Below are positions 9,187-55,213 of a stretch of 64,000 nt of DNA, piece after piece (the stretch's first letter is position 1; the number at the start of each line of letters is the position of its first letter). Made by a program: the position numbers and the translations under genes. The stretch covers positions 1,922,001-1,986,000 of the forward strand of contig NZ_CP047940.1 of assembly GCF_014280235.1 (NCBI RefSeq), written 5' to 3'. The DNA is from Cyanobium sp. NS01. GTDB taxonomy: Bacteria > Cyanobacteriota > Cyanobacteriia > PCC-6307 > Cyanobiaceae. The notes under the pieces are model-generated. The model had not been told where the DNA came from. It was given only the letters and a program-made list of their open reading frames with translations, and searched no databases.

Positions 9187-9726
9187 TCAAGAATATCGAA
9201 AACAACTTTTTCCGAGAATATTTTGCTCATGAATTGCGCCAATCGCTTTTATGTGCCAATCAGCTTGGCGCGCGTCAATGTAACTCAATATTCCAGTAGC
9301 TATAGCCGCCGCATGGTCGGAGTCGTTATTTCCAATCATAATTGATGAGCGTGGGTTAAGATCAAGCTCGTTACAGGCTTGAACAAGCATGCCTGGTTTC
9401 GGCTTTCGGCAGAATGAGTCTTTTTTATAGGCTCCGACACCGTGAATCGGGTGGAAAGGACAATGATAGATCCGATTGATAGTAATGTCAAGTAGGCAAA
9501 ACCTATTAAGCATGTAACTTGTTACACGCCTGAAATCCTCATGTGAATAATAACCCCTCCCAATCCCCGCCTGATTCGTCACAACCACAATCTTCATTCT
9601 CGCTTTTTGAGCGGCCCTGCATACATCAAAGATCTCTTCTCGAAAGTGAAAGTCTTCAATCTTATGCACATACCCATAGTCTTCATTGATGACCCCATCG
9701 CGATCCAGGAACAAGGCTCTGTTCAT
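9187..9726 (-). CDS. gmhB: D-glycero-D-manno-heptose 1,7-bisphosphate 7-phosphatase
   Basis: A HAD-superfamily phosphatase of 179 residues. Motif I is LFLDRDGVINEDYGYV, motif II VVTNQAGIGRG, and the cap carries the zinc-binding CPFHPIHG...C arrangement of GmhB. KPKPGML and MIGNNDSDHAAA supply motifs III and IV; the usual GD(S/R)xxD is here GNNDSD, a small change in the magnesium-binding loop. It removes the 7-phosphate in the third step of the GDP-heptose pathway. The ATG overlaps the stop of hddC by 4 bases, and all four pathway genes are adjacent on one strand. The anomer (alpha in the GDP branch) is inferred from hddA and hddC. Confidence 0.85.
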   Translation of the reverse strand: MNRALFLDRDGVINEDYGYVHKIEDFHFREEIFDVCRAAQKARMKIVVVTNQAGIGRGYYSHEDFRRVTSYMLNRFCLLDITINRIYHCPFHPIHGVGAYKKDSFCRKPKPGMLVQACNELDLNPRSSIMIGNNDSDHAAAIATGILSYIDARQADWHIKAIGAIHEQNILGKSCFRYS

Positions 9727-10418
9727 GGCAACACCTCCGCAGCACGTTTCAGATCATCGGGCACGCCGATATCGATAAAAGCTCCTTCACAAGCTGTGCC
9801 GCACAGTCGTTCTGCAGCCAGGCGCTTCGGGAAGTAATCGGTCTCGATCGAAAAGACAGCTTCAGACCAGGCCGCAATGGCTTCGCGATGGAGCACGTAG
9901 ATGCCGCCATTGATCAAGCCAGGCCCCTGGGCTCCCTTTTCCGCCAGTGCCACCACCCGCCCACTGGCATCCAGCTGCACAGCCCCGTAGCGACCCACAT
10001 CCTCCACACGCCGGCAGGCCATCAGATCCGATCCGGCTGGGGTCTGCGCCACCAGTTGGCGGTAGTCCACATCGAAGAACGTGTCGCCATTGAGCACCAG
10101 CAGCTGCTCACAGGCGATCACCCGCGCCGCTGCACGGATCGCTCCACCGGTGCCCAACGGGGTTTCCTCCACGCTGTAGCCCAGTTGCATCCCCCCATAG
10201 GCGAGTCCCAGCGCCTCTTCCGCCATCTCCCCCTTGTAGCCAGTGAGCAGCGTGGCCGCCTGGAACCCCGCCTGGGCCAGCTGGTCGAGCAGGTGGGTGA
10301 TGAAGGGCCTGCCGGCCACCTCCGCCAGCACCTTGGGGCGATCAGCCACCACACTGCGCAGCCGGGTTCCCAGGCCGCCGGCCAGGATCAGCACATGAAC
10401 CGCCATCGCTGGGCTCAT
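9723..10418 (-). CDS. hddC: D-glycero-alpha-D-manno-heptose 1-phosphate guanylyltransferase
   Basis: A nucleotidyltransferase of 231 residues with the intact signature LILAGGLGTRLRSVV followed by PKVLAEVAGRPFI, the metal-binding LVLNGDTFFDVD, and EKGAQGPGLINGGIYVL for the sugar pocket. It would join GTP and heptose 1-phosphate to give GDP-heptose, the last step of the pathway. The specific call rests on being flanked by gmhA and gmhB with hddA one gene further upstream; the fold alone would only say sugar-phosphate nucleotidyltransferase. The start chosen at 10418 overlaps the gmhA stop (ATGA); a second Met lies four codons inside. Confidence 0.82.
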   Translation of the reverse strand: MSPAMAVHVLILAGGLGTRLRSVVADRPKVLAEVAGRPFITHLLDQLAQAGFQAATLLTGYKGEMAEEALGLAYGGMQLGYSVEETPLGTGGAIRAAARVIACEQLLVLNGDTFFDVDYRQLVAQTPAGSDLMACRRVEDVGRYGAVQLDASGRVVALAEKGAQGPGLINGGIYVLHREAIAAWSEAVFSIETDYFPKRLAAERLCGTACEGAFIDIGVPDDLKRAAEVLP

Positions 10419-10993
10419 GGGGCAAACACCCGCTGCTCCACCATCTCACATATGGTGTGGCCCATCAGCAGATGGCCCTCCTGGATCCGCGGAACACAGC
10501 TGCTGGGAACCCGCAGCAGCTGGTCGCAATAGGGGGCCATGCGCCCCTCGCTTGCTCCCGTGAGCCCCACCGTGGCCACCTCCAGCTCCCTTGCCACCTG
10601 CAGGGCCTTTACGATGTTGGGCGAGTTGCCGGAGGTGGAGTAGGCCAACAGCACATCCCCCGCCTTGGCCAACCCCTGCACCTGCCGGCTGAAGGCCTGC
10701 TCATAGCCATAGTCGTTGGCGATGGCGGTGAGGATCGAGGTGTCGGTGGTGAGCGCCACCGCCGGCAGCGGGTTGCGGTCAAACATGAAGCGGCTCACAA
10801 ACTCGCCAGCCATGTGCTGACAGTCGGCCGCGCTGCCGCCGTTGCCGGCAAACAGCAGCTTGTTGCCCTTCGCCAGGGCCTGCACCACCAGCTCCACCAC
10901 CGCCTCCAGGCTGCTCTGGATGCTGGCGTCGGCGGCCAGCTCGGCGTAGGTGCGGGCGGCATCTGCAAACGACTGGGCGATCGAGGGCGGCAT
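10415..10993 (-). CDS. gmhA: Sedoheptulose 7-phosphate isomerase
   Basis: An SIS-domain protein of 192 residues. LLFAGNGGSAADCQHMAGEF carries the phosphosugar-binding Ser, ALTTDTSILTAIANDYGYE and LLAYSTSGNSPNIV are further GmhA hallmarks, and the C-terminal helix has EGHLLMGHTICE with the metal-binding His. It converts sedoheptulose 7-phosphate to D-glycero-D-manno-heptose 7-phosphate, the first committed step. It lies 3 bases after hddA and overlaps hddC by 4 bases, so the three are surely cotranscribed. Length and motifs are normal for the family. Confidence 0.9.
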   Translation of the reverse strand: MPPSIAQSFADAARTYAELAADASIQSSLEAVVELVVQALAKGNKLLFAGNGGSAADCQHMAGEFVSRFMFDRNPLPAVALTTDTSILTAIANDYGYEQAFSRQVQGLAKAGDVLLAYSTSGNSPNIVKALQVARELEVATVGLTGASEGRMAPYCDQLLRVPSSCVPRIQEGHLLMGHTICEMVEQRVFAP

Positions 10994-10996
10994 CGT

Positions 10997-12040
10997 TCAG
11001 ATCCTCCAGGCCTGGGCGCCGTGTTCGCTGAGGCAGCAGAAGTTGGTTTCACCCCCGGCCTCCAGCAGGGCGCGCCGCAGCTGGATCGCCCTGGAGGGAT
11101 GGGTCATGAACAAGATGAAGCCACCGCCCCCAGCGCCCGACACCTTGGCGGCCTCAGCCCCATGCTGTTGGGCCAGGGCAATGCGCTCATCGATCACAGG
11201 GCTGCTCACCTTGCTGGAGGTCTGCGCCTTGTTCTGCCAGCTGCGGTTGAGCGACTCCCGTATCCCGTCACGGTCACACTTCAGCACCGCCTCCTTCATC
11301 GTGCGCGCTTCCTGCTTGAGGTTGTGCAGGAAGTTGAGCTTCTCGCTTTGCTGCTCGTGGGCCGCTTTGGTTTGATCTTCGATCACCTCAGCCGATTGCC
11401 GCGACACGCCGGTGAAGTGCAGCAGCAACGACGATTCCAGCTCACAGCGGAACCAATTCTTCACCCGCAGAGGATTCACGATCGTGCGGTCGTGCTCAAA
11501 CTCAATGAAGTTGAAGCCGCCAAAGGTAGCCGAATACTGATCTTGCCGCCCCCCTGCCAGCCCACAGTCTTCCCGCTCGATCGTGTAGGCCAGCTCAGCG
11601 ATTTCGTAGTCGTCGATCCCCAGGTTGAGGGCCTCCACAAAAGCCTTCACCATGGCCACCACCAAGGTGGATGAACTACCCAAACCCGAGCCAATCGGTG
11701 CATCGCAGTAGGTGCTCAGCCGGCAGGCAAACGGTGTAGCGCTGTTGAAATCAGCAACGATCTTGTTGTAAACGGCTTGATGCAACAGCAACTGACGCGG
11801 CAATTGTTCGACCGGCGTATCTCCGTTGATCTGTTGATGCAGGCCCGAATCAAGCGCTTCGGCGATAAAGCCGTCGTCGCAGCGCGACAGCTCGGCATAG
11901 GCGTAGCGATTGATGGTGGTGTTGAGCACAGCACCGCCATGCACACTGTAAAAATCTTTGATGTCTGTGCCGCCGCCGGCCAGCCCCACCCGCAGGGGGG
12001 CTCGGGCACGCACAAGCCTTGGCAGGACGCTGCTGGTCAT
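10997..12040 (-). CDS. hddA: D-glycero-alpha-D-manno-heptose 7-phosphate kinase
   Basis: A GHMP kinase of 347 residues: ARAPLRVGLAGGGTDIKDFY at the start, PIGSGLGSSSTLVVAMVKA as the ATP-binding loop, and KVSGAGGGGFILFM as motif 3. The AGGGTD(L/I) form is typical of heptose/fucose kinases of the HddA group. It phosphorylates heptose 7-phosphate at C1. It is the first gene of the heptose operon; the 84 bases upstream separate it from the large glycosyltransferase gene on the same strand and may hold a promoter, though none is obvious. Confidence 0.88.
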   Translation of the reverse strand: MTSSVLPRLVRARAPLRVGLAGGGTDIKDFYSVHGGAVLNTTINRYAYAELSRCDDGFIAEALDSGLHQQINGDTPVEQLPRQLLLHQAVYNKIVADFNSATPFACRLSTYCDAPIGSGLGSSSTLVVAMVKAFVEALNLGIDDYEIAELAYTIEREDCGLAGGRQDQYSATFGGFNFIEFEHDRTIVNPLRVKNWFRCELESSLLLHFTGVSRQSAEVIEDQTKAAHEQQSEKLNFLHNLKQEARTMKEAVLKCDRDGIRESLNRSWQNKAQTSSKVSSPVIDERIALAQQHGAEAAKVSGAGGGGFILFMTHPSRAIQLRRALLEAGGETNFCCLSEHGAQAWRI

Positions 12041-16241: not shown

Positions 16242-16484
16242 TCACGGCAAGCTCCGAAAAAACGCCGTCCGCTGCGCCCGCCCACCACCGGCCCAGGGCC
16301 ACCAGGGTGCGGTGAAGGCCTCGTCATGCGCCCACAGCTGCAGCTCCCTGGCCGTGATGGCAAAGCCGGCGGCCTGGGCCCGTTGCACCAGCTGCGCCAG
16401 GTCGGCCGCTGCGCCGATCTGGGCTTGCAGGGCTGGGTCAGCCGCCACCGCTTGCAGGAACTGCCGCAGGGCAGGGCTCTTCAT
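16242..16484 (-). CDS. Nif11-like peptide, copy 1
   Basis: An 80-residue protein with the Nif11 pattern: MKSPALRQFLQAVAADPAL, then LAQLVQRAQAAGFAITARE, the helix ending in the family's G-F/Y-x-(I/F)-T signature. The tail is unusual: FTAPWWPWAGGGR followed by RTAFFRSLP. Nif11 domains are best known as leader regions of RiPP precursors, with a core following a Gly-Gly site; the GGG here is suggestive but the residual tail is only 12 residues without Cys or Ser/Thr clusters, so a free-standing regulator-like peptide is equally possible. A near-identical copy is at 27069-27308. The start sits 11 bases from a heptanucleotide tandem repeat, with a G-rich stretch (GGGGGTAGG) as candidate ribosome-binding site. 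Confidence 0.75.
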   Translation of the reverse strand: MKSPALRQFLQAVAADPALQAQIGAAADLAQLVQRAQAAGFAITARELQLWAHDEAFTAPWWPWAGGGRAQRTAFFRSLP

Positions 16485-16495
16485 GGCCTACCCCC

Positions 16496-16593
16496 GGTCG
16501 CTGGTCGCTGGTCGCTGGTCGCTGGTCGCTGGTCGCTGGTCGCTGGTCGCTGGTCGCTGGTCGCTGGTCGCTGGTCGCTAGTCGCTGGTCGCT
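16496..16593. repeat. Heptanucleotide tandem repeat, 14 copies
   Basis: GGTCGCT is repeated 14 times head to tail, perfect except that copy 13 reads AGTCGCT. The array ends 11 bases before the start codon of the minus-strand Nif11-like gene, so it lies in that gene's leader or promoter. The same unit occurs four times at the same place in front of the second Nif11 copy. Short tandem heptanucleotide repeats are known from other cyanobacteria; arrays of this kind readily change copy number by slippage. Confidence 0.95.
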
Positions 16594-16753
16594 GGCGCAT
16601 TATTTCCGCAATCACGCGCAGTCAATGCCAGTTTCTACCGATATTACCCCAGTTGTTGGTATGCCATCGCACCTATGCAGAACATGCATGCCTAGGGCTG
16701 TTTGGGGCCCTGGCCCGATGGCAGTGCTGCTCCGCTCTGCGTAGCGTTCCAGC

Positions 16754-17650
16754 ATGCAGCTCTACGCGGAGCCCACTGAGCTCACCGCCCAAGTGAGTGC
16801 CCTGCTGGCCAGTGAGACAGCGCCCTCGTCGGTCGCACTGCTGCAGTTGGCCCTGCTCTGCCTGCAAACCGGCCACCCCGAGCAGGCCGCTCGCCTGCGC
16901 CGCAGCGCCCTGCTCAGCGCTGAGCACCAAGCCGAGCTGCAGAGCCTGGAGCGCAGTGATCCGCTCAGCCTCTACAGCAGCTGGAAAGCTGCGGCCACCA
17001 GCGGCTGGCAGGCCGCGCTCAGCCCCGATGCCCTGCTGCGCCTGGGCCTGCTACTCAGCTCCTGCGAAGGCGACGCCCTCACCCGCCTGCACAGCGATCT
17101 GCAGGAGGTCTTCGGGGAGGCGATGCTGCAGGCGGACCTGCTGCAGGCCGTGCAGCTGTGGGACCAGCTCTGCCGCCGCTGCCCCGACTGGAGCTGGGCG
17201 CGGCTGATGGCCTGCGACCTGGCCCTGCAGGCCGAGCAGCTCGAGCTCTGCCACCACCACCTCGAAACCGCCCCGGCCGCTGAGCGCCGCAGCATCTCGC
17301 TGCTGGATGTGGAGGCCCGGCTGCGGTTGCAGCAGCAGTTCGTGCAGGAGGCGCTGCGCTGCTGGGATGCGGCGATCGAGCAGGCCCGCGCCGAGCGCCA
17401 GTTCAAGTGGGCCTCGGCCCTGGTGAACCGCCGCCACGCCGCCAAGATGGCCGACCTCAAAAGCCGCGCCAGCCAGACCATTCCCTACGAGGCGGAGCTG
17501 GACCGGATCTCCAGCTTCCTCACCTCGGTGGCCGATCGCTACGGCATCGCGCTGCCGCCGCCCAGCCCATCGAGCCACGGCTCTCAGAAGCTGGTCGCTG
17601 TGTCAACCAACCAATTGAAGGGCAGTCGCACCCAGTCATCAATCGAATAA
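16754..17650 (+). CDS. Helical repeat (TPR-like) protein, possibly truncated
   Basis: A 298-residue, Leu/Ala/Gln-rich helical protein with repeated helix pairs such as LLQLALLCLQTGHPEQAARL and VEARLRLQQQFVQEALRCW, in the style of tetratricopeptide repeats. No catalytic motif is visible. The last 25 or so residues are read from the antisense of the RES toxin gene (overlap 17584-17650), so the natural C-terminus was probably lost when the RES-Xre module arrived; the reading frame simply runs on to a chance stop. It is transcribed away from the Nif11 gene, with about 160 bases between the repeat array and its start. Confidence 0.55.
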   Translation: MQLYAEPTELTAQVSALLASETAPSSVALLQLALLCLQTGHPEQAARLRRSALLSAEHQAELQSLERSDPLSLYSSWKAAATSGWQAALSPDALLRLGLLLSSCEGDALTRLHSDLQEVFGEAMLQADLLQAVQLWDQLCRRCPDWSWARLMACDLALQAEQLELCHHHLETAPAAERRSISLLDVEARLRLQQQFVQEALRCWDAAIEQARAERQFKWASALVNRRHAAKMADLKSRASQTIPYEAELDRISSFLTSVADRYGIALPPPSPSSHGSQKLVAVSTNQLKGSRTQSSIE

Positions 17651-18081
17651 TGGCTGACCTGGCGGGGATCCAACACCACGTTGTGATCCGTTGTGCTGAT
17701 CACCGATGGCACCCGCAGCCCACACACGTGCTGGCCATCAGCAGCTGCACGATCAACGGCAGTGATGAATTCGCGGCCGATGCTCTGAGCATTCGGGCCA
17801 ACAGGGCGCACGTTCCAGTTGGTAGGAAGGATCAGGCCCAGATCATCCAGGTCCACCACCGACCCGTCGGGAATCGACAGGGCCGCGATCGTCAGTTCAG
17901 TCAAGGTCTGCCAGCCCGGTCGACTCACGACTTCCAGAATGGCCAGTGACTGAACCTCTGCTGCATAGAGAATCGGGCAGCGCCTGTCGTTGAAGCGCCA
18001 GCCATCTCGGGCCACGGATGCCTGTGTGTCCAGGGGATCAAAGGCATCTCGGGGGCGCCGGCTTGCGCGATACACCAGCAT
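17584..18081 (-). CDS. RES-domain toxin
   Basis: A 165-residue RES-family protein: MLVYRASRRP at the N-terminus with the first conserved Arg, then GWRFNDRRCPILYAAEVQSL and AILEV with the conserved Glu. The C-terminal half has the usual IPDxxxxDLDDL strand and a final SHYSIDDWVRLPFNW. RES toxins are NAD-degrading enzymes related to ADP-ribosyltransferases, kept in check by a Xre/MbcA-type antitoxin, which is the gene immediately upstream with an 8-base gap. Order (antitoxin then toxin) is standard. Its 3' end runs into the convergent helical-repeat gene. Confidence 0.85.
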   Translation of the reverse strand: MLVYRASRRPRDAFDPLDTQASVARDGWRFNDRRCPILYAAEVQSLAILEVVSRPGWQTLTELTIAALSIPDGSVVDLDDLGLILPTNWNVRPVGPNAQSIGREFITAVDRAAADGQHVCGLRVPSVISTTDHNVVLDPRQVSHYSIDDWVRLPFNWLVDTATSF

Positions 18082-18089
18082 CCCGAATC

Positions 18090-18683
18090 TCAGAGGGGGC
18101 CGCCTTCTGCCTGGGTGTGCAATTCATTGAGCACAAGCCGCTCGCCATCACCTGTCTTCACCAGCTCGGCTGGGGTGGAGCCACCTAGTGCGAAGTTGGG
18201 CGTGTGCATATACGCTCTCGCTGCAGCGAAGCTACCCAGCACATCGGCCGCTGTCACCGTGACCCGTGCAGCACGCAGTGCTCGCTCACTGGCGGCGGTG
18301 TCGAGCGGATGGCCCAGCCTGGCCTTGATGGTCTTGAAGCTCAGCCCAAAGAACCCCTCTGCATCGCTGAGGGTGTTCAGGAACATCGAGGACGACACCA
18401 AGAGCGACTCTCCCGCCAGGCCAGCCGCCAGGCGGCGATGCACGGCCATCGGCTCCAGAGGCTGGCTGCCAAGGGTGCTCTGCTGAGCCAGCGCTGCTTC
18501 TGTGAGCTGCCAGACGCTGGCGAGTTCCACCTTCTTGAGCTCACGCACCCGGGCCTGCAGGGCCTTGTTGTCGAGCACCTCAAGCACCCAGGCATCGATC
18601 AGCGCGGGTTCCATCCCGGCTGCGCTGTGGCGGGGCAATCTTGGCAGCGATGCCGCCGGCTGCGCTCGCTGATGCGTGGACAT
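18090..18683 (-). CDS. Xre/MbcA-type antitoxin (DUF2384)
   Basis: The C-terminal region (GFFGLSFKTIKARLGHPLDT, AADVLGSFAAARAYMHTPNF and ALGGSTPAELVKTGDGERLV) is the DUF2384 toxin-binding domain found in RES-associated antitoxins. The N-terminal half has helices fitting the Xre-like DNA-binding part. The frame is open from 18752, but ATG 18683 is chosen because a GGAG stands seven bases before it. It binds and inhibits the RES toxin and probably represses its own operon. At 197 residues it is slightly longer than typical members. Confidence 0.82.
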   Translation of the reverse strand: MSTHQRAQPAASLPRLPRHSAAGMEPALIDAWVLEVLDNKALQARVRELKKVELASVWQLTEAALAQQSTLGSQPLEPMAVHRRLAAGLAGESLLVSSSMFLNTLSDAEGFFGLSFKTIKARLGHPLDTAASERALRAARVTVTAADVLGSFAAARAYMHTPNFALGGSTPAELVKTGDGERLVLNELHTQAEGGPL

Positions 18684-18803
18684 TGGAATTCTCCACAGCT
18701 GGTTCTGGATTATCCCATGATCAAGGGCCGTTGGTAGCCCTGGCGCGTTCATTGCCGCCTTGGGGCCCGCGGGATCGGCGCTGGCCAGATCGTCGACCCA
18801 CCA

Positions 18804-18820
18804 CGTAGCAGAATGCTACG
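18804..18820. promoter_or_regulatory. Palindrome upstream of ParD-zeta pair
   Basis: CGTAGCAGAATGCTACG is a perfect inverted repeat of 7 bases around a 3-base centre, 31 bases before the antitoxin ATG at 18852. Toxin-antitoxin operons are commonly autorepressed at such sites, so this is a candidate operator; the function is inferred. Confidence 0.5.
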
Positions 18821-18851
18821 GTCGTAAGTGACGCATGCCCGGCTGCATCTG

Positions 18852-19274
18852 ATGGCAAAGGCTTCTTCCCCTGTTCGGCTTCAGAGCGAGCTGATGGAGA
18901 GTGCGGCCAGGGCGGGAGCTCTCCACCACCGCAGTGCTGCCGAGCAGATCGAATATTGGGCGGATCTTGGACGCCGGGTGGCCCGCGTGCTCGATCCCGA
19001 CACCCTGCTTGATCTGGCTGCCGGTGCAGTTCGCCTCCATCTGGAACCCGTTGTGACGCCGAGCGTGTCGCCAGAGCAGGTGTTTGCAGCCGTCGACGCT
19101 GACCGTGCTTCTGGAATTCTGGTGGGAGCCGTGACCACAGCCCCCCTGCGCTACCAGGTGGCCACCGGCTCGCCGGGCTACCTGGAGCAGATCGCTGCCG
19201 ATGGCACCCGGATGCTGGGCAGCTTCCAGGATGGCGTGTTCACGCCGCTGAACACCCCGGACACCAAGGCCTGA
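18852..19274 (+). CDS. ParD-like antitoxin
   Basis: A 140-residue protein starting MAKASSPVRLQSELMESA, with AAEQIEYWADLGRRVARVLD directly after: the ParD-like pattern of a short ribbon-helix-helix lead followed by the 'QIEYWA(D/R)LGR' segment. The C-terminal 40 residues (ATGSPGYLEQIAADGTRMLG) are characteristic of the longer ParD-like group that pairs with P-loop toxins. ATG 18852 is preferred to the in-frame GTG at 18828. It ends 4 bases before the zeta-like toxin gene, so the two are cotranscribed, and a palindrome lies in its promoter region. Confidence 0.75.
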   Translation: MAKASSPVRLQSELMESAARAGALHHRSAAEQIEYWADLGRRVARVLDPDTLLDLAAGAVRLHLEPVVTPSVSPEQVFAAVDADRASGILVGAVTTAPLRYQVATGSPGYLEQIAADGTRMLGSFQDGVFTPLNTPDTKA

Positions 19275-19278
19275 CGCC

Positions 19279-19872
19279 TTGAGCGCTGAAAAGCAGCTGT
19301 GGGTGCTGGTTGGCGGCAACGGAGCTGGAAAATCCACGTTCTATCGCCTCTACCTCCAGCCTCTGGGTCTGCCCTTTGTGAATGCTGACCTGCTCGCCCA
19401 GATCGCCTATCCCGAGGCACCAGAGCAATCCAGCTATGAAGCAGCCCTGTTAGCGCAGGAGCAGCGCCAGCAGCTACTGCTTCAAGGTGTGAGCTTCTGT
19501 TTTGAAACCGTTTACTCCCACCCCTCAAAGATCGACTTTGTAGGCCGCGCCAAGGCCCTTGGCTATCAGGTGGTGATGGTGTTCATTCACCTGGGCGATC
19601 CCAGCTTGAATCAGGCACGCATCAGCATGCGCGTGAGCCAGGGCGGCCATGCTGTGCCGCCCGAAAAAGTACAGAAGCGTATTCCCAGGTTGCTGGAACA
19701 GGTGAAAAAGTCACTGCCCCTTTGTGATGTGCTGAGGGCCTATGACAACAGTTCTGCTGATCATCCATTCATGCCTGTCTTCACCATCAGCAACGGCAGT
19801 CTCGAGACCCATCTTGCCCCCCTTCCTGCCTGGGCCGTGAATATGCTTGCAGATTCATCTCCTGATAGCTGA
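19279..19872 (+). CDS. Zeta-type toxin (P-loop kinase)
   Basis: The N-terminus LWVLVGGNGAGKSTFYRLYL holds the Walker A motif, followed by FVNADLLAQI and the family's FCFETVYSHPSKIDF with catalytic-site residues. Zeta toxins phosphorylate UDP-N-acetylamino sugars and so block wall synthesis; some relatives act on other targets. Length (197 residues) suits this short cyanobacterial group. The start is TTG 19279, 4 bases after the antitoxin stop. The ParD-like partner replaces the classical epsilon antitoxin, a pairing seen in many genomes. Target specificity is inferred. Confidence 0.75.
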   Translation: MSAEKQLWVLVGGNGAGKSTFYRLYLQPLGLPFVNADLLAQIAYPEAPEQSSYEAALLAQEQRQQLLLQGVSFCFETVYSHPSKIDFVGRAKALGYQVVMVFIHLGDPSLNQARISMRVSQGGHAVPPEKVQKRIPRLLEQVKKSLPLCDVLRAYDNSSADHPFMPVFTISNGSLETHLAPLPAWAVNMLADSSPDS

Positions 19873-24092: not shown

Positions 24093-24566
24093 GTGATGTC
24101 AGATGGTCAAAGCCTTCCGGGGCTGCCTGCTCCAGTCCCGCCGCCCCGGCTGCTGGATCTCCAGGGCTGGTCAACCCTTGTAGCCGGCTCCTTGCTGCTG
24201 CTGATTTCGTTCACCACCAACTATGGCGATGACAACCTCTCCCGCTTCCGCAGACTCCCGGCCCATGACCAGGTCGGAGTATGTCTCCACTTTGCCGCCC
24301 TGGCGGCGCTTGTTGGCGATGTTCAACTGGCGTCCCGTCTACGACATCGAGCAAGAAACCGAGAGATTGAGGATCGAATCGCTCGAAAGCGAGAAGCGGC
24401 TGCTCGAAAGCAAGAAGCAGATGCTCGAAAGCGAGAAGCGGTTGAAGCTGCTGCAAGAGAGCAACGCCAGAATCGCGCGCTTCGAGCAGGAGCTCTTTTC
24501 CTCCTCGAACCCAGCCCCCTCCACCGGCGATTCCTCGCCTACATAGCCAACGAACTGGCTGGCTGA
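24093..24566 (+). CDS. Small membrane-anchored coiled-coil protein, copy 2
   Basis: A 157-residue paralogue of the protein at 19969-20424: PAPVPPPRLLDLQGW, hydrophobic STLVAGSLLLLISFTTNYGD, then a Lys/Glu/Ala/Arg coiled coil longer by several heptads (RKREAAARKQEADARKREAV), and the same ending ALFLLEPSPLHRRFLAYIAN. Length difference is by whole codons. GTG 24093 is followed at once by ATG 24096. Like copy 1, it is followed convergently by heparinase sequence, here only a truncated 3' end, so the pair was duplicated as a block. The membrane-plus-coil build suggests a structural or septum-related role, but nothing more can be said. Confidence 0.55.
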   Translation: MMSDGQSLPGLPAPVPPPRLLDLQGWSTLVAGSLLLLISFTTNYGDDNLSRFRRLPAHDQVGVCLHFAALAALVGDVQLASRLRHRARNREIEDRIARKREAAARKQEADARKREAVEAAAREQRQNRALRAGALFLLEPSPLHRRFLAYIANELAG

Positions 24567-25547: not shown

Positions 25548-26198
25548 GTGACCATGACACTTGCCCCGCCAGCAAGCCCCGTCGACTGCCCCGGGCATGC
25601 CCTCGCGCCGTTGCTGCTGCCGCATGAGCTGCGGCTCACAGCTGAGCAGTTTGAGGCCGTCTGCCAGGTCAACCCCGACGCCGTGCTGGAGCTCGACGCC
25701 AGCGGCCACGTGATCCACATGACCCCCACCGGCAGCGAAACCGGATCCAGAAACCAGGCGCTCGGGGCTCTTCTCTGGATTGCGGTGCGTACAGCTGGGC
25801 TGCCACTGAAGGTGTTCGACAGCTCCAGCGGCTTTCGCTTGCCCGATGGCTCGGTGCTCAGCCCTGATGCTGCCCTGATCAGGCAAGAGCGCTGGGCGGC
25901 CCTCACGCCAGAGGAACGGCGCGGCTTTGCACCCCTTTGCCCCGATCTGGTGGTGGAGCTGGCCAGCCCCAACGACCAGGGGCCGCGCGGCCTCACGGGC
26001 CTGCGCCGCAAGATGGCCGCCTATCAGGCCAATGGCGCCCAACTGGGCTGGCTGCTGATTCCTGAGCAACAGGCGGTGGAGGTGTGGCCCGCCAGTGGCG
26101 GTGGCGATCCCCTGCGCATCGATGTCGCCACCAGCCTTGATGCCGGCTCCCTGTTCCCCGGGCTGCAGATCGATCTGCTGGAGATCTGGCAGGGGTGA
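25548..26198 (+). CDS. Uma2-family restriction-endonuclease-like protein
   Basis: A 216-residue DUF820/Uma2 protein. LTAEQFEAVCQVNPDAVLEL, GHVIHMTPTGSETGSRN, the putative active-site strands LPDGSVLSPDAALIRQERW and LCPDLVVELASPNDQ, and RRKMAAYQANGAQLGWLL are the family's conserved segments in order; the PD and (V)ExxS residues form the PD-(D/E)XK-type site. Uma2 proteins are abundant in cyanobacteria and of uncertain role. Start is GTG 25548 or ATG 25554. It lies in the toxin-antitoxin-rich zone, beside a broken AbrB-MazF, and shows no defect itself. Confidence 0.88.
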   Translation: MTMTLAPPASPVDCPGHALAPLLLPHELRLTAEQFEAVCQVNPDAVLELDASGHVIHMTPTGSETGSRNQALGALLWIAVRTAGLPLKVFDSSSGFRLPDGSVLSPDAALIRQERWAALTPEERRGFAPLCPDLVVELASPNDQGPRGLTGLRRKMAAYQANGAQLGWLLIPEQQAVEVWPASGGGDPLRIDVATSLDAGSLFPGLQIDLLEIWQG

Positions 26199-26199
26199 G

Positions 26200-27002
26200 C
26201 GGCAGCCAGGCCAGTCGGTCGCGGGGCAGATCCGAGCCCAGCACCCCGTGCTTCCAGTTGGCGATGTGGTGCATGCGCGCTTCCGAGAAGCCGGCGGCCT
26301 GCAACTGCTCCAGCACATCCCAGGCGGGGATGCGATACACCAGTGAGCCCTGATGCGGCCGCACCGGATCGCCGTGGTAATCAGGCCAGCGGGCAGGTGG
26401 CCAACAGCCTCCCGCCCGGCCGCAGCACCCGGGCGATCTCGCGGAAGGCCAGCTCCAGATCCTGCTCGTGCTCAAACAGCTCGTTGCACAGCACCAGATC
26501 AAAGCTGGCATCGGTGAAGGTGAGGGCGCAGAGGTCCTGGTGGGGACTATCCGAAAGGCCTGCTCGGCATCCTCCAGGAATTCACTGCAGCTCAGCCGCC
26601 CCTCCCCCGGCTGACGCCGCAGCCACAGGGAAAACCCGGGAGCGCCTCCACCAGATAGATGGCCTGTTGGCCCAGCCCCTCCAGGGAGCCATCAAGCTGC
26701 TCCAGCACCAGCAGCACCGCCCGGTTGCGGCTGAGCAGCCCCTTGGCGATCAGCGCCTCGCGGTAGTTCGGCCCCTGAATCGTGATCGCCTCCGGCGGGA
26801 TGTGCTCGCCGGTAAACGGCTCCAGGATCCCCAGGGCCTGGCTCGCCTGCACGCAGTCGCCGAGCAGACCGCCCTGCTGCAGCAGCGCCGGCAGCAGGAG
26901 CAGAAAGTCGCCCAGGTTGGCATAAACCAGCTGCAGATCGTGCAGCGCCAGCATCCCTTCGCTGGACTTCTGCGCTGGACGCTCAGCAGCCTGCACCACC
27001 AA
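26200..27002 (-). pseudogene. Methyltransferase, decayed duplicate
   Basis: A broken copy of the gene at 15206-16102. The N-terminal part is open from 27002 and matches in order (LLQQGGLLGDCVQASQALGI, GPNYREALIAKGLLSRNRAV and QQAIYLVEALPGF). Then frames shift near 26600 and 26550, the SFDLVLCNELFEHEQDLELA core reappears in another frame, and after ATCPLA a deletion (near 26385) removes about 25 codons and introduces a stop. The end, SLVYRIPAWDVLEQLQAAGF to KHGVLGSDLP, is again recognisable but the last codons are lost at the Uma2 stop. It lies downstream of the second Nif11 copy, as the intact gene does for the first. Confidence 0.85.
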
Positions 27003-27068: not shown

Positions 27069-27308
27069 CTACTGACCTCTGAAAAACGCTGTCCGCCCTG
27101 CCCGCCCGCCCCCGGTCCAGGGCCACCAGGGTGCGGTGAAGGCCTCGTCGTGGGCATACAGCTGCAGCTCCCTGGCCGTGATGGCAAAGCCGGCGGCCTG
27201 GGCCCGTTGCACCAGCTGCGCCAGGTCGCTCGCCGCACCGATCCGGGCCTGCAGGGCCGGGTCAGCCGCCACCGCTTGCAGGAACTGCCGCAGGGCAGGG
27301 CTCTTCAT
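27069..27308 (-). CDS. Nif11-like peptide, copy 2
   Basis: A 79-residue near-duplicate of the protein at 16242-16484: the helical Nif11 part differs at only a few positions (ARIGAASD for AQIGAAAD), and the tail is FTAPWWPWTGGGR followed by RTAFFRGQ. The conserved WWPW-x-GGGR and TAFFR elements in both copies suggest the tail matters. It is preceded by the same heptanucleotide repeat (four copies) 11 bases before the ATG and followed by the decayed methyltransferase. Both the coding part and about 90 bases beyond the repeat resemble copy 1, so the unit was duplicated with its promoter. Confidence 0.75.
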   Translation of the reverse strand: MKSPALRQFLQAVAADPALQARIGAASDLAQLVQRAQAAGFAITARELQLYAHDEAFTAPWWPWTGGGRAGRTAFFRGQ

Positions 27309-27319
27309 GGCCTACCCCC

Positions 27320-27347
27320 AGTCGCTGGTCGCTGGTCGCTGGTCGCT
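27320..27347. repeat. Heptanucleotide tandem repeat, 4 copies
   Basis: AGTCGCT followed by three perfect GGTCGCT units, 11 bases from the start codon of the second Nif11-like gene (minus strand). It is the counterpart of the 14-copy array at 16496-16593; the sequence just beyond, GGCGCATTA, is common to both loci. Confidence 0.9.
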
Positions 27348-27707
27348 GGCGCATTAATTCCATCGTCTCGCGCAGACAATCATCCTTACAGATATTGCCC
27401 CAATGTCGGTATTCCATCGCACCTATCCAGAACATGCATGCCTCGGCACCACCGCTGGGTGAGGGTCATTGCCACAGCTGGGATCTGAGGGAGGCGCGCT
27501 ACTCCATGGGACACCGCTGGCGTGATCGGCTCCAGTGCCTCGCCCATGCAGAAAGCGGTGTGGCTGTGATCCCGGATCACCAGGGCCTTGCCATCGGCCT
27601 GGCAGATCGCCACCGTCTGCTCCATGCGGCTGAGAAAGACCTCCTGGTTCTCCTCAGCCGTGAGGGCGCGATGGCCGCGCGGTCATGGCGTGCTTGGGAA
27701 TCTGGCC
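27348..27707. other. No intact gene; Nif11 promoter side and a coding remnant
   Basis: The first 90 bases are shared with the region upstream of Nif11 copy 1 (for instance CATCGCACCTAT and AGAACATGCATGCCT) and probably hold its promoter. From about 27450 to 27690 the minus strand has a short open stretch, MEQTVAICQADGKALVIRDH then SHTAFCMGEALEP, which looks like an internal piece of a larger protein, perhaps of sulfotransferase type, with no start or proper end. I cannot assign it. Confidence 0.35.
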
Positions 27708-28049
27708 TCAAGCTACGGGCAGCAGGCGGCGCAGGTGGGCCATCACCCCGGCCTGGTCCTCTGCCTCCAGCGCTCCAACAGCCCCGAGCACCAGCCGTGC
27801 ATCCAGTGTGAACAGCTTGAAGCGCACCAGGCAGGGCTGCTTCAAGCCAGCAGCCTGCAGATCCGCTATCGGCCAATCCAGGGGCCACGCCGATTGCCGG
27901 GCCGAGGTGATCATCGCCAGCACAAGATGGCCGCAGCGTTGCTGAAACCCTGGCGGCGACAGCACCAGGGCCGGCCGCCGCTTGCTGTCCTCACGATCGC
28001 TGAAAGGGAAGGGCACCCGAACCCCAGCAAACCTGTCGAAGGGTGTCAT
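27708..28049 (-). CDS. MazF/PemK-type toxin
   Basis: A 113-residue protein with the MazF N-terminal motif VPFPFSDREDSKRRPALVLS, then the strand GHLVLAMITSARQSAWPLDW and CLVRFKLFTLD, in the order of MazF/PemK endoribonucleases; the last helix ends in VMAHLRRLLPVA. MazF enzymes cut mRNA when not held by their antitoxin. The gene starts 24 bases after the AbrB-type gene on the same strand, and together they form an intact pair. A fused, deleted version of the same pair is at 25229-25471. Confidence 0.85.
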   Translation of the reverse strand: MTPFDRFAGVRVPFPFSDREDSKRRPALVLSPPGFQQRCGHLVLAMITSARQSAWPLDWPIADLQAAGLKQPCLVRFKLFTLDARLVLGAVGALEAEDQAGVMAHLRRLLPVA

Positions 28050-28073
28050 CGCTGGCCTGTGGGGAATCCCGGC

Positions 28074-28292
28074 TCAGAGGTCTTGAAACGCTTCGTGGTC
28101 CGCCTGGCTGCTCCACTCCGCCAGGGTGGCCTCCAGGCCCTTCAGGTAGGCCACATCCAGCGGCGCCACGGCCCGCACCGCCCCATCCTCCAGCTCCCAG
28201 CTGAGCTGATCACCCTGCTGCAGGCCCAGGGCGTCGCGCACGGCCTTCGGCACCGTCACCTGGCCCTTGGCTGTGAGTGTGGCCAGCTCCAT
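28074..28292 (-). CDS. AbrB/MazE-type antitoxin
   Basis: A 72-residue protein: MELATLTAKGQVTVPKAVRD followed by ALGLQQGDQLSWELEDGAVR is the swapped-hairpin AbrB DNA-binding fold, and the last 30 residues (AYLKGLEATLAEWSSQADHE) form the acidic tail that would wrap the toxin. It is followed by the MazF-type gene. It likely represses its own operon as well as neutralising the toxin. ATG start at 28292; no competing start. Confidence 0.85.
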   Translation of the reverse strand: MELATLTAKGQVTVPKAVRDALGLQQGDQLSWELEDGAVRAVAPLDVAYLKGLEATLAEWSSQADHEAFQDL

Positions 28293-43400: not shown

Positions 43401-43517
43401 GGCTCAAACGATGCGCAAATGCACACATACCTCTCCCTAGAAAGTATCGTATCGAACAAAAAACGCAGCCAACCCAGTGCCAGCAACGGAGTAGACACTT
43501 TGCAAATCGCACATGGC

Positions 43518-43559
43518 TTGACCAATCCTGCGCGTTTCTTGACCAATCCTGCGCGTTTC
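43518..43559. promoter_or_regulatory. Tandem 21-base repeat with TTGACC boxes
   Basis: TTGACCAATCCTGCGCGTTTC occurs twice without a gap (43518-43538 and 43539-43559). The period of two helical turns would place two bound factors on one face of the DNA. The second TTGACC with TAACTT at 43563-43568 (18-base spacing) makes a plausible promoter for the gene at 43594. A TATAAT at 43587-43592 is too close to the ATG to serve with a normal leader. Confidence 0.5.
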
Positions 43560-43593
43560 TGGTAACTTGTAAGCACTAGAACCAAATATAATC

Positions 43594-55107: not shown

Positions 55108-55170
55108 GCAGAGCAACCTTCAACACCCCCCATCCTATCGACAGCTGCGCCCGCTGCTCCGGGGCCCCGC

Positions 55171-55212
55171 CCGCCGCTGAGGCCACCGACCCCCGCCGCT
55201 GAGGCCACCGAC
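55171..55212. repeat. 20-base direct repeat before homocysteine-synthesis gene
   Basis: CCGCCGCTGAGGCCACCGAC occurs at 55171-55190 and again at 55193-55212, ending one base before the ATG at 55214. The period is 22. It occupies the place of a ribosome-binding site, and no purine-rich site is evident. Confidence 0.85.
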
Positions 55213-55213
55213 C

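Follow-up and report, generated by a model that had tools for sequence, protein, structure and literature searches.

What role, if any, can be assigned to a long tandem array of seven-nucleotide units that ends just short of the start codon of a small gene? The window analysed here, a 64,000-nucleotide stretch of Cyanobium sp. NS01 (contig NZ_CP047940.1), carries such an array directly upstream of a nif11-like gene (Table 1). An earlier note on this DNA had described the array as variable and raised the idea that a change in its copy number by slippage could alter expression of the gene. We examined how the array is placed, how it arose, where else it occurs and which explanations of it are plausible.

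The array, its spacer and the nif11-like gene

On the forward strand, positions 16496–16593 (98 nt) comprise 14 tandem 7-nt units, 13 of them exact GGTCGCT and one AGTCGCT (16580–16586), and 12 consecutive units (84 nt) are free of even a single mismatch. Dinucleotide-preserving shuffles of the window (n = 100) gave on average 0.00 matches to the 14-mer, against 13 observed, so that the array shows the tandem 7-nt units far above chance that characterize heptanucleotide SSRs (LSSR/STRR). Its predicted RNA fold was no better than that of shuffles (z = +1.0; it folds worse than shuffled sequence), its predicted DNA structure showed nothing beyond that of shuffled sequence, and no Rfam family matched.

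Table 1. Features of the two nif11-like loci in the window.
Feature	Position	Strand	Remarks
Upstream leader, copy 1	16594..16693	-	Common to copy 2; conserved GCATGCATGTTCTG and GGAA.TAATGCGCC; presumed promoter
Heptanucleotide array, copy 1	16496..16593	-	Sense (AGCGACC)14; unit 2 from the 5′ end is AGCGACT
11-nt spacer GGGGGTAGGCC, copy 1	16485..16495	-	Shine–Dalgarno-like GGGGG adjoins array; holds in-frame TAG
nif11-like gene, copy 1	16242..16484	-	80 aa; PF07862, TIGR03798; codon-position G+C 0.74/0.58/0.81
Upstream leader, copy 2	27348..27443	-	Pairs with copy 1 leader
Heptanucleotide array, copy 2	27320..27347	-	Sense (AGCGACC)3 AGCGACT; forward strand three exact units and one AGTCGCT
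11-nt spacer GGGGGTAGGCC, copy 2	27309..27319	-	Identical to copy 1
nif11-like gene, copy 2	27069..27308	-	79 aa; ~91% identical to copy 1

The fourteen units end 11 bases from the start codon, as the earlier note had counted (A of the ATG at 16484, gap 16485–16495). The GGGGG of the spacer lies six nt from the ATG and pairs at about −10 kcal/mol with the anti-Shine–Dalgarno (anti-SD) sequence, taken here as the common bacterial 16S 3′ end, from which that of this genome may differ. In both copies, a TAG in frame with nif11 precedes the ATG by two codons. The number of units is therefore unable to extend or frameshift Nif11, and frameshift phase variation of Nif11 itself, as by an SSR switch in the coding frame, is ruled out. 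That the unit length is not a multiple of three, a point made earlier, is correct but irrelevant to the Nif11 frame, which the TAG isolates. The suggested location in the leader or close to the promoter is borne out, with the array 11 nt from the ATG and abutting the SD-like GGGGG. Judged by this arrangement, the array probably lies within the mRNA leader or overlaps the transcription start; because it abuts a strong SD-like element, a promoter downstream of it would give an SD-less or leaderless transcript.

The leader of about 100 nt that precedes both arrays was found at no other place in the genome. A consensus sigma-70 promoter was sought in both leaders and not recognized; at the 5′ edge of the array, the pair TTGACT/TTGTCT and AATAAT/ATTAAT, with a spacer of 15, is suggestive by eye only.

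The label Nif11-like is secure: the product of copy 1 scores 46.2 bits against PF07862 (copy 2, 45.4 bits; curated cut-off 23.8) and 43.8 bits against TIGR03798 (cut-off 32.3), and its G+C by codon position is coding-like. Given a dN of 0.04–0.05 against a dS of 0.18–0.27 between the copies, the protein is, on these estimates, under purifying selection. Although it passes both curated cut-offs of the Nif11/TIGR03798 leader-peptide family (PF07862), it carries, instead of a variable core, the conserved tail WPW..G..(R)xxFF, and no Cys. Nif11-derived RiPP precursors (N11P) are defined by a double-Gly leader, a hypervariable Cys/Ser/Thr-rich core and maturation enzymes nearby, and we rejected an assignment to this class, given a Cys-free tail that relatives conserve. 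Among the neighbours scanned, which are glycosyltransferase, methyltransferase, sugar-nucleotide and toxin–antitoxin genes, no maturation genes of the lanthipeptide or TOMM type were recognized. A viral or phage origin of nif11 was likewise set aside, as no relative was found in phage records or viral contigs.

One duplicated module and a changing copy number

The paralogous gene that the earlier note had reported, with four units in the matching position 11 nt from the ATG, is indeed present, and leader, array, GGGGGTAGGCC and ATG follow one another in this order at both loci. Their leaders are identical at 81 of 95 ungapped sites and differ at 14 (JC 0.16), and the downstream methyltransferase genes are far less alike (about 68–70% DNA identity). 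Beside nif11 copy 2, the methyltransferase paralogue (25993–27002, reverse strand) looks broken, or reflects an assembly error: it matches the protein of the copy 1 methyltransferase in three pieces, in different frames and one with a stop.

As read from this shared layout, the two arrays most likely descend from one event, in which a single module of leader, array, spacer and gene was duplicated. Because all four elements are common to both loci, the arrays do not provide separate evidence for a rule; the four-unit paralogue is real, but it is part of a single duplicated module and does not count as a second, independent occurrence.

The paralogues carry 4 and 14 units as assembled, where an error in repeat number is possible, and thus show the change in copy number that also characterizes heptanucleotide SSRs. 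The description of the array as variable holds in this sense, that copy number has changed since the duplication, as a difference between the two paralogues. Assuming that the tract evolves at the rate given by the leader divergence (0.16) or by the nif11 dS (0.19–0.27), 7–11 substitutions are expected in the 84-nt perfect tract since the duplication, and the tract shows none (P about 1e-3 to 1e-5). A tract that is perfect despite this expectation points to recent expansion or homogenization of copy 1, and to a copy number that moves.

Distribution of the repeat and known heptamer arrays

The earlier note had proposed a search of the genome for other GGTCGCT arrays. Exact units stand side by side at three places across its 2.75 Mb: the two arrays and an isolated pair at C1:461265. 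No heptamer array of at least three copies was found in 400 kb sampled across the same genome outside the window, nor in 400 kb of a congener; in the 464 kb made up of sample and window, the two arrays are the only ones of that length, a background rate that refers to the 400-kb sample. Three exact adjacent units were absent from the 399 other genomes of the family that were searched, and a search of the genus with three mismatches allowed gave one poor match outside this genome. With two arrays that represent one duplicated module, we rejected the idea that GGTCGCT marks a regulon of many sites, or a mobile repeat family, in this genome or genus, and two arrays in a genome are also unlike a TAACTGA-type heptamer regulon, in which many sets stand before many genes.

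Arrays are not a general trait of Nif11 genes either, since the other Nif11 loci checked are without one: nothing comparable was found beside the genome's four remaining Nif11 genes, and no comparable tandem array near the Nif11 loci fetched from relatives. The placement beside a Nif11 start, which had been called notable, was seen at the two copies of the window and at none of the other Nif11 loci checked. As no other Nif11 gene examined, here or in relatives, carries an array, this one is, on the sequences compared, lineage-specific. A Nif11 subfamily bearing a conserved tail (W/F-P-W ... R..FF) occurs widely across the family (loci L218, L220, L235, L237, L238, L244 and L245), unlike the variable cores of RiPP precursors, and the two nif11 genes of the window are divergent members of it. 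In two congeners, a different small gene lies upstream of the syntenic methyltransferase; a candidate Nif11 remnant before that of one congener (L204, ~2795–2908) came down to a single weak match, rich in Ala and containing a stop, and was dismissed as unconvincing.

Among the matches listed, GGTCGCT arrays are scattered through many unrelated bacteria, both within ORFs and outside them. Many were seen in a Planctomycetota MAG (maxbin.317; JALHRW loci including L044), where the longest has at least about 17 units, and, among the matches listed, in two Marichromatium species (L069 and L105). In viral contigs, GGTCGCT was found in 18 contigs with about 65 matches, against 6–11 contigs and 11–13 matches for four control heptamers, a mild excess that makes no family of its own.

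A text search for the GGTCGCT repeat sequence found no paper within the literature covered, and several systems with other units can be compared. In Haemophilus influenzae, the heptamer tract of hmw1A overlaps the −10 element of P2 and lies in the 5′ UTR, and expression falls as the number of heptamers rises (PMC8262952). The (ATCTTTC)n tracts of hmw1A/hmw2A resemble the arrays of the window in having 7-bp tandem units before the start codon at two paralogous loci with differing copy number. They lie between promoter and start, in the P2 5′ UTR, whereas no consensus promoter was recognized for the array of the window, and both the effect on expression and variation among isolates have been measured for them (PMC8262952). 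The unit also differs, and the product is an adhesin there and a Nif11-domain protein here.

TAACTGA heptamer direct repeats are known from Beggiatoaceae, cyanobacteria and Bacteroidetes, and most of those in the Maribeggiatoa genome lie no more than several nt before a start codon (PMC4679880). They share with our array the form of heptamer direct repeats close before start codons and an occurrence in cyanobacteria, but in some strains a single genome holds hundreds of such sites (PMC4679880), compared with another unit at one duplicated site in the window; furthermore, the TAACTGA unit contains a stop codon, and AGCGACC does not. Heptanucleotide SSRs of Nostoc, Calothrix and Xanthomonas likewise form tandem arrays, often intergenic and near ORFs, with cyanobacterial cases among them; those of Nostoc and Xanthomonas are of the G-quadruplex-forming GGGAATC and GGGGA(C/T)T types and abundant genome-wide (PMC4692102), whereas GGTCGCT has GG runs only. 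The array belongs to a known kind, the heptanucleotide SSR upstream of a start codon, of which this example is new.

Possible leader-length tuning, its rivals and the setting of the locus

We see roughly even chances that a slippage-prone heptanucleotide SSR forms most of the nif11 5′ leader and tunes expression via its copy number. The array sits between the presumed promoter, in the shared leader, and the Shine–Dalgarno sequence; units would be gained and lost by replication slippage, the change in number would lengthen or shorten the leader, or shift the distance between promoter and ribosome site, and would thereby raise or lower nif11 expression by degrees, as in hmw1A. In favour of this reading are the layout kept at both loci, the perfect 84-nt tract, the strong SD-like element that the array abuts, the purifying selection on nif11 and the precedents of hmw1A and the TAACTGA repeats. 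Against it count that neither leader shows a consensus sigma-70 promoter, that the repeat has no notable RNA structure and that the array is conserved in no relative examined, so that comparison gives no sign of selection on it; maintenance as a phase-variation device would be a further, conjectural step. The main rival is a neutral repeat, to which we assign a substantial probability, if short of an even one: slippage expansion in a tolerant intergenic spot, copied with the gene and having no regulatory role. This would account for the sporadic GGTCGCT arrays inside and outside ORFs of unrelated bacteria among the matches listed, for the arrays that four other heptamers of like composition form in viral contigs and for an array before a Nif11 gene that is conserved in no relative examined. 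It sits less easily with the observation that the only heptamer arrays of at least three copies in 464 kb are placed exactly against a ribosome-binding site, and a difference of 70 nt in leader length likely affects expression somewhat, even if unselected.

We consider it unlikely that a DNA- or RNA-binding regulator recognizes the repeated units, with copy number setting operator strength. Regular identical units directly upstream of a start would suit this reading, and a similar proposal exists for the TAACTGA repeats of Beggiatoaceae (PMC4679880), but two sites in the genome fall short of a regulon, units spaced 7 bp apart do not keep helical register and no relative shares the sites. Slighter still is the probability of a frame-switched upstream ORF (uORF) through the array, in which the number of units modulo 3 would set the stop and so switch translational coupling to nif11; it would amount to phase variation by the frame of a leader peptide, outside the regulated gene. 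Such a uORF (ATG CGC CAG CGA CC..) has its ATG at 16600, conserved at 27354, and hence in both copies. None of the frames of the array contains a stop, although stop-free heptamers are common, and the position of the stop cycles with the number of units n modulo 3: at n = 14, as in copy 1, it falls on the nif11 start in an ATGA overlap (CCATGA), at n = 15 it is a TAG three nt before it, and at n = 4 it lies 47 nt inside nif11. Against this stand a weak Shine–Dalgarno sequence of its own (−3 to −4 kcal/mol, compared with −10 for that of nif11), an ATG that may fall in the −10 region of the promoter and go untranscribed, and the lack of such a uORF in any homologue.

At 9723–12040 on the reverse strand, NTP transferase, SIS-domain and GHMP-kinase genes stand in a row next to a 1005-aa double glycosyltransferase; we take the three to be the set expected for GDP-heptose synthesis, and the region is probably a surface-polysaccharide cluster. 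Several toxin–antitoxin-like genes lie near both nif11 copies (17584–19872 and 27708–28292): a RES gene paired with an Xre/MbcA/ParS gene, a kinase resembling zeta toxin, and a PemK/MazF-like gene preceded by a small partner. Other tandem repeats of the window, with units of 21 and 22 nt, are found at 24381–24441, 43517–43560 and 55170–55213.

If copy number does not tune nif11, the locus shows how an eye-catching repeat can be explained by slippage and the duplication of one module. In the literature searched, we found no described case of an SSR-based expression switch in picocyanobacteria. If leader-length tuning holds, the array would be a defined switch of this kind in a picocyanobacterium, and it would act on a Nif11-domain protein beside probable surface-polysaccharide genes.
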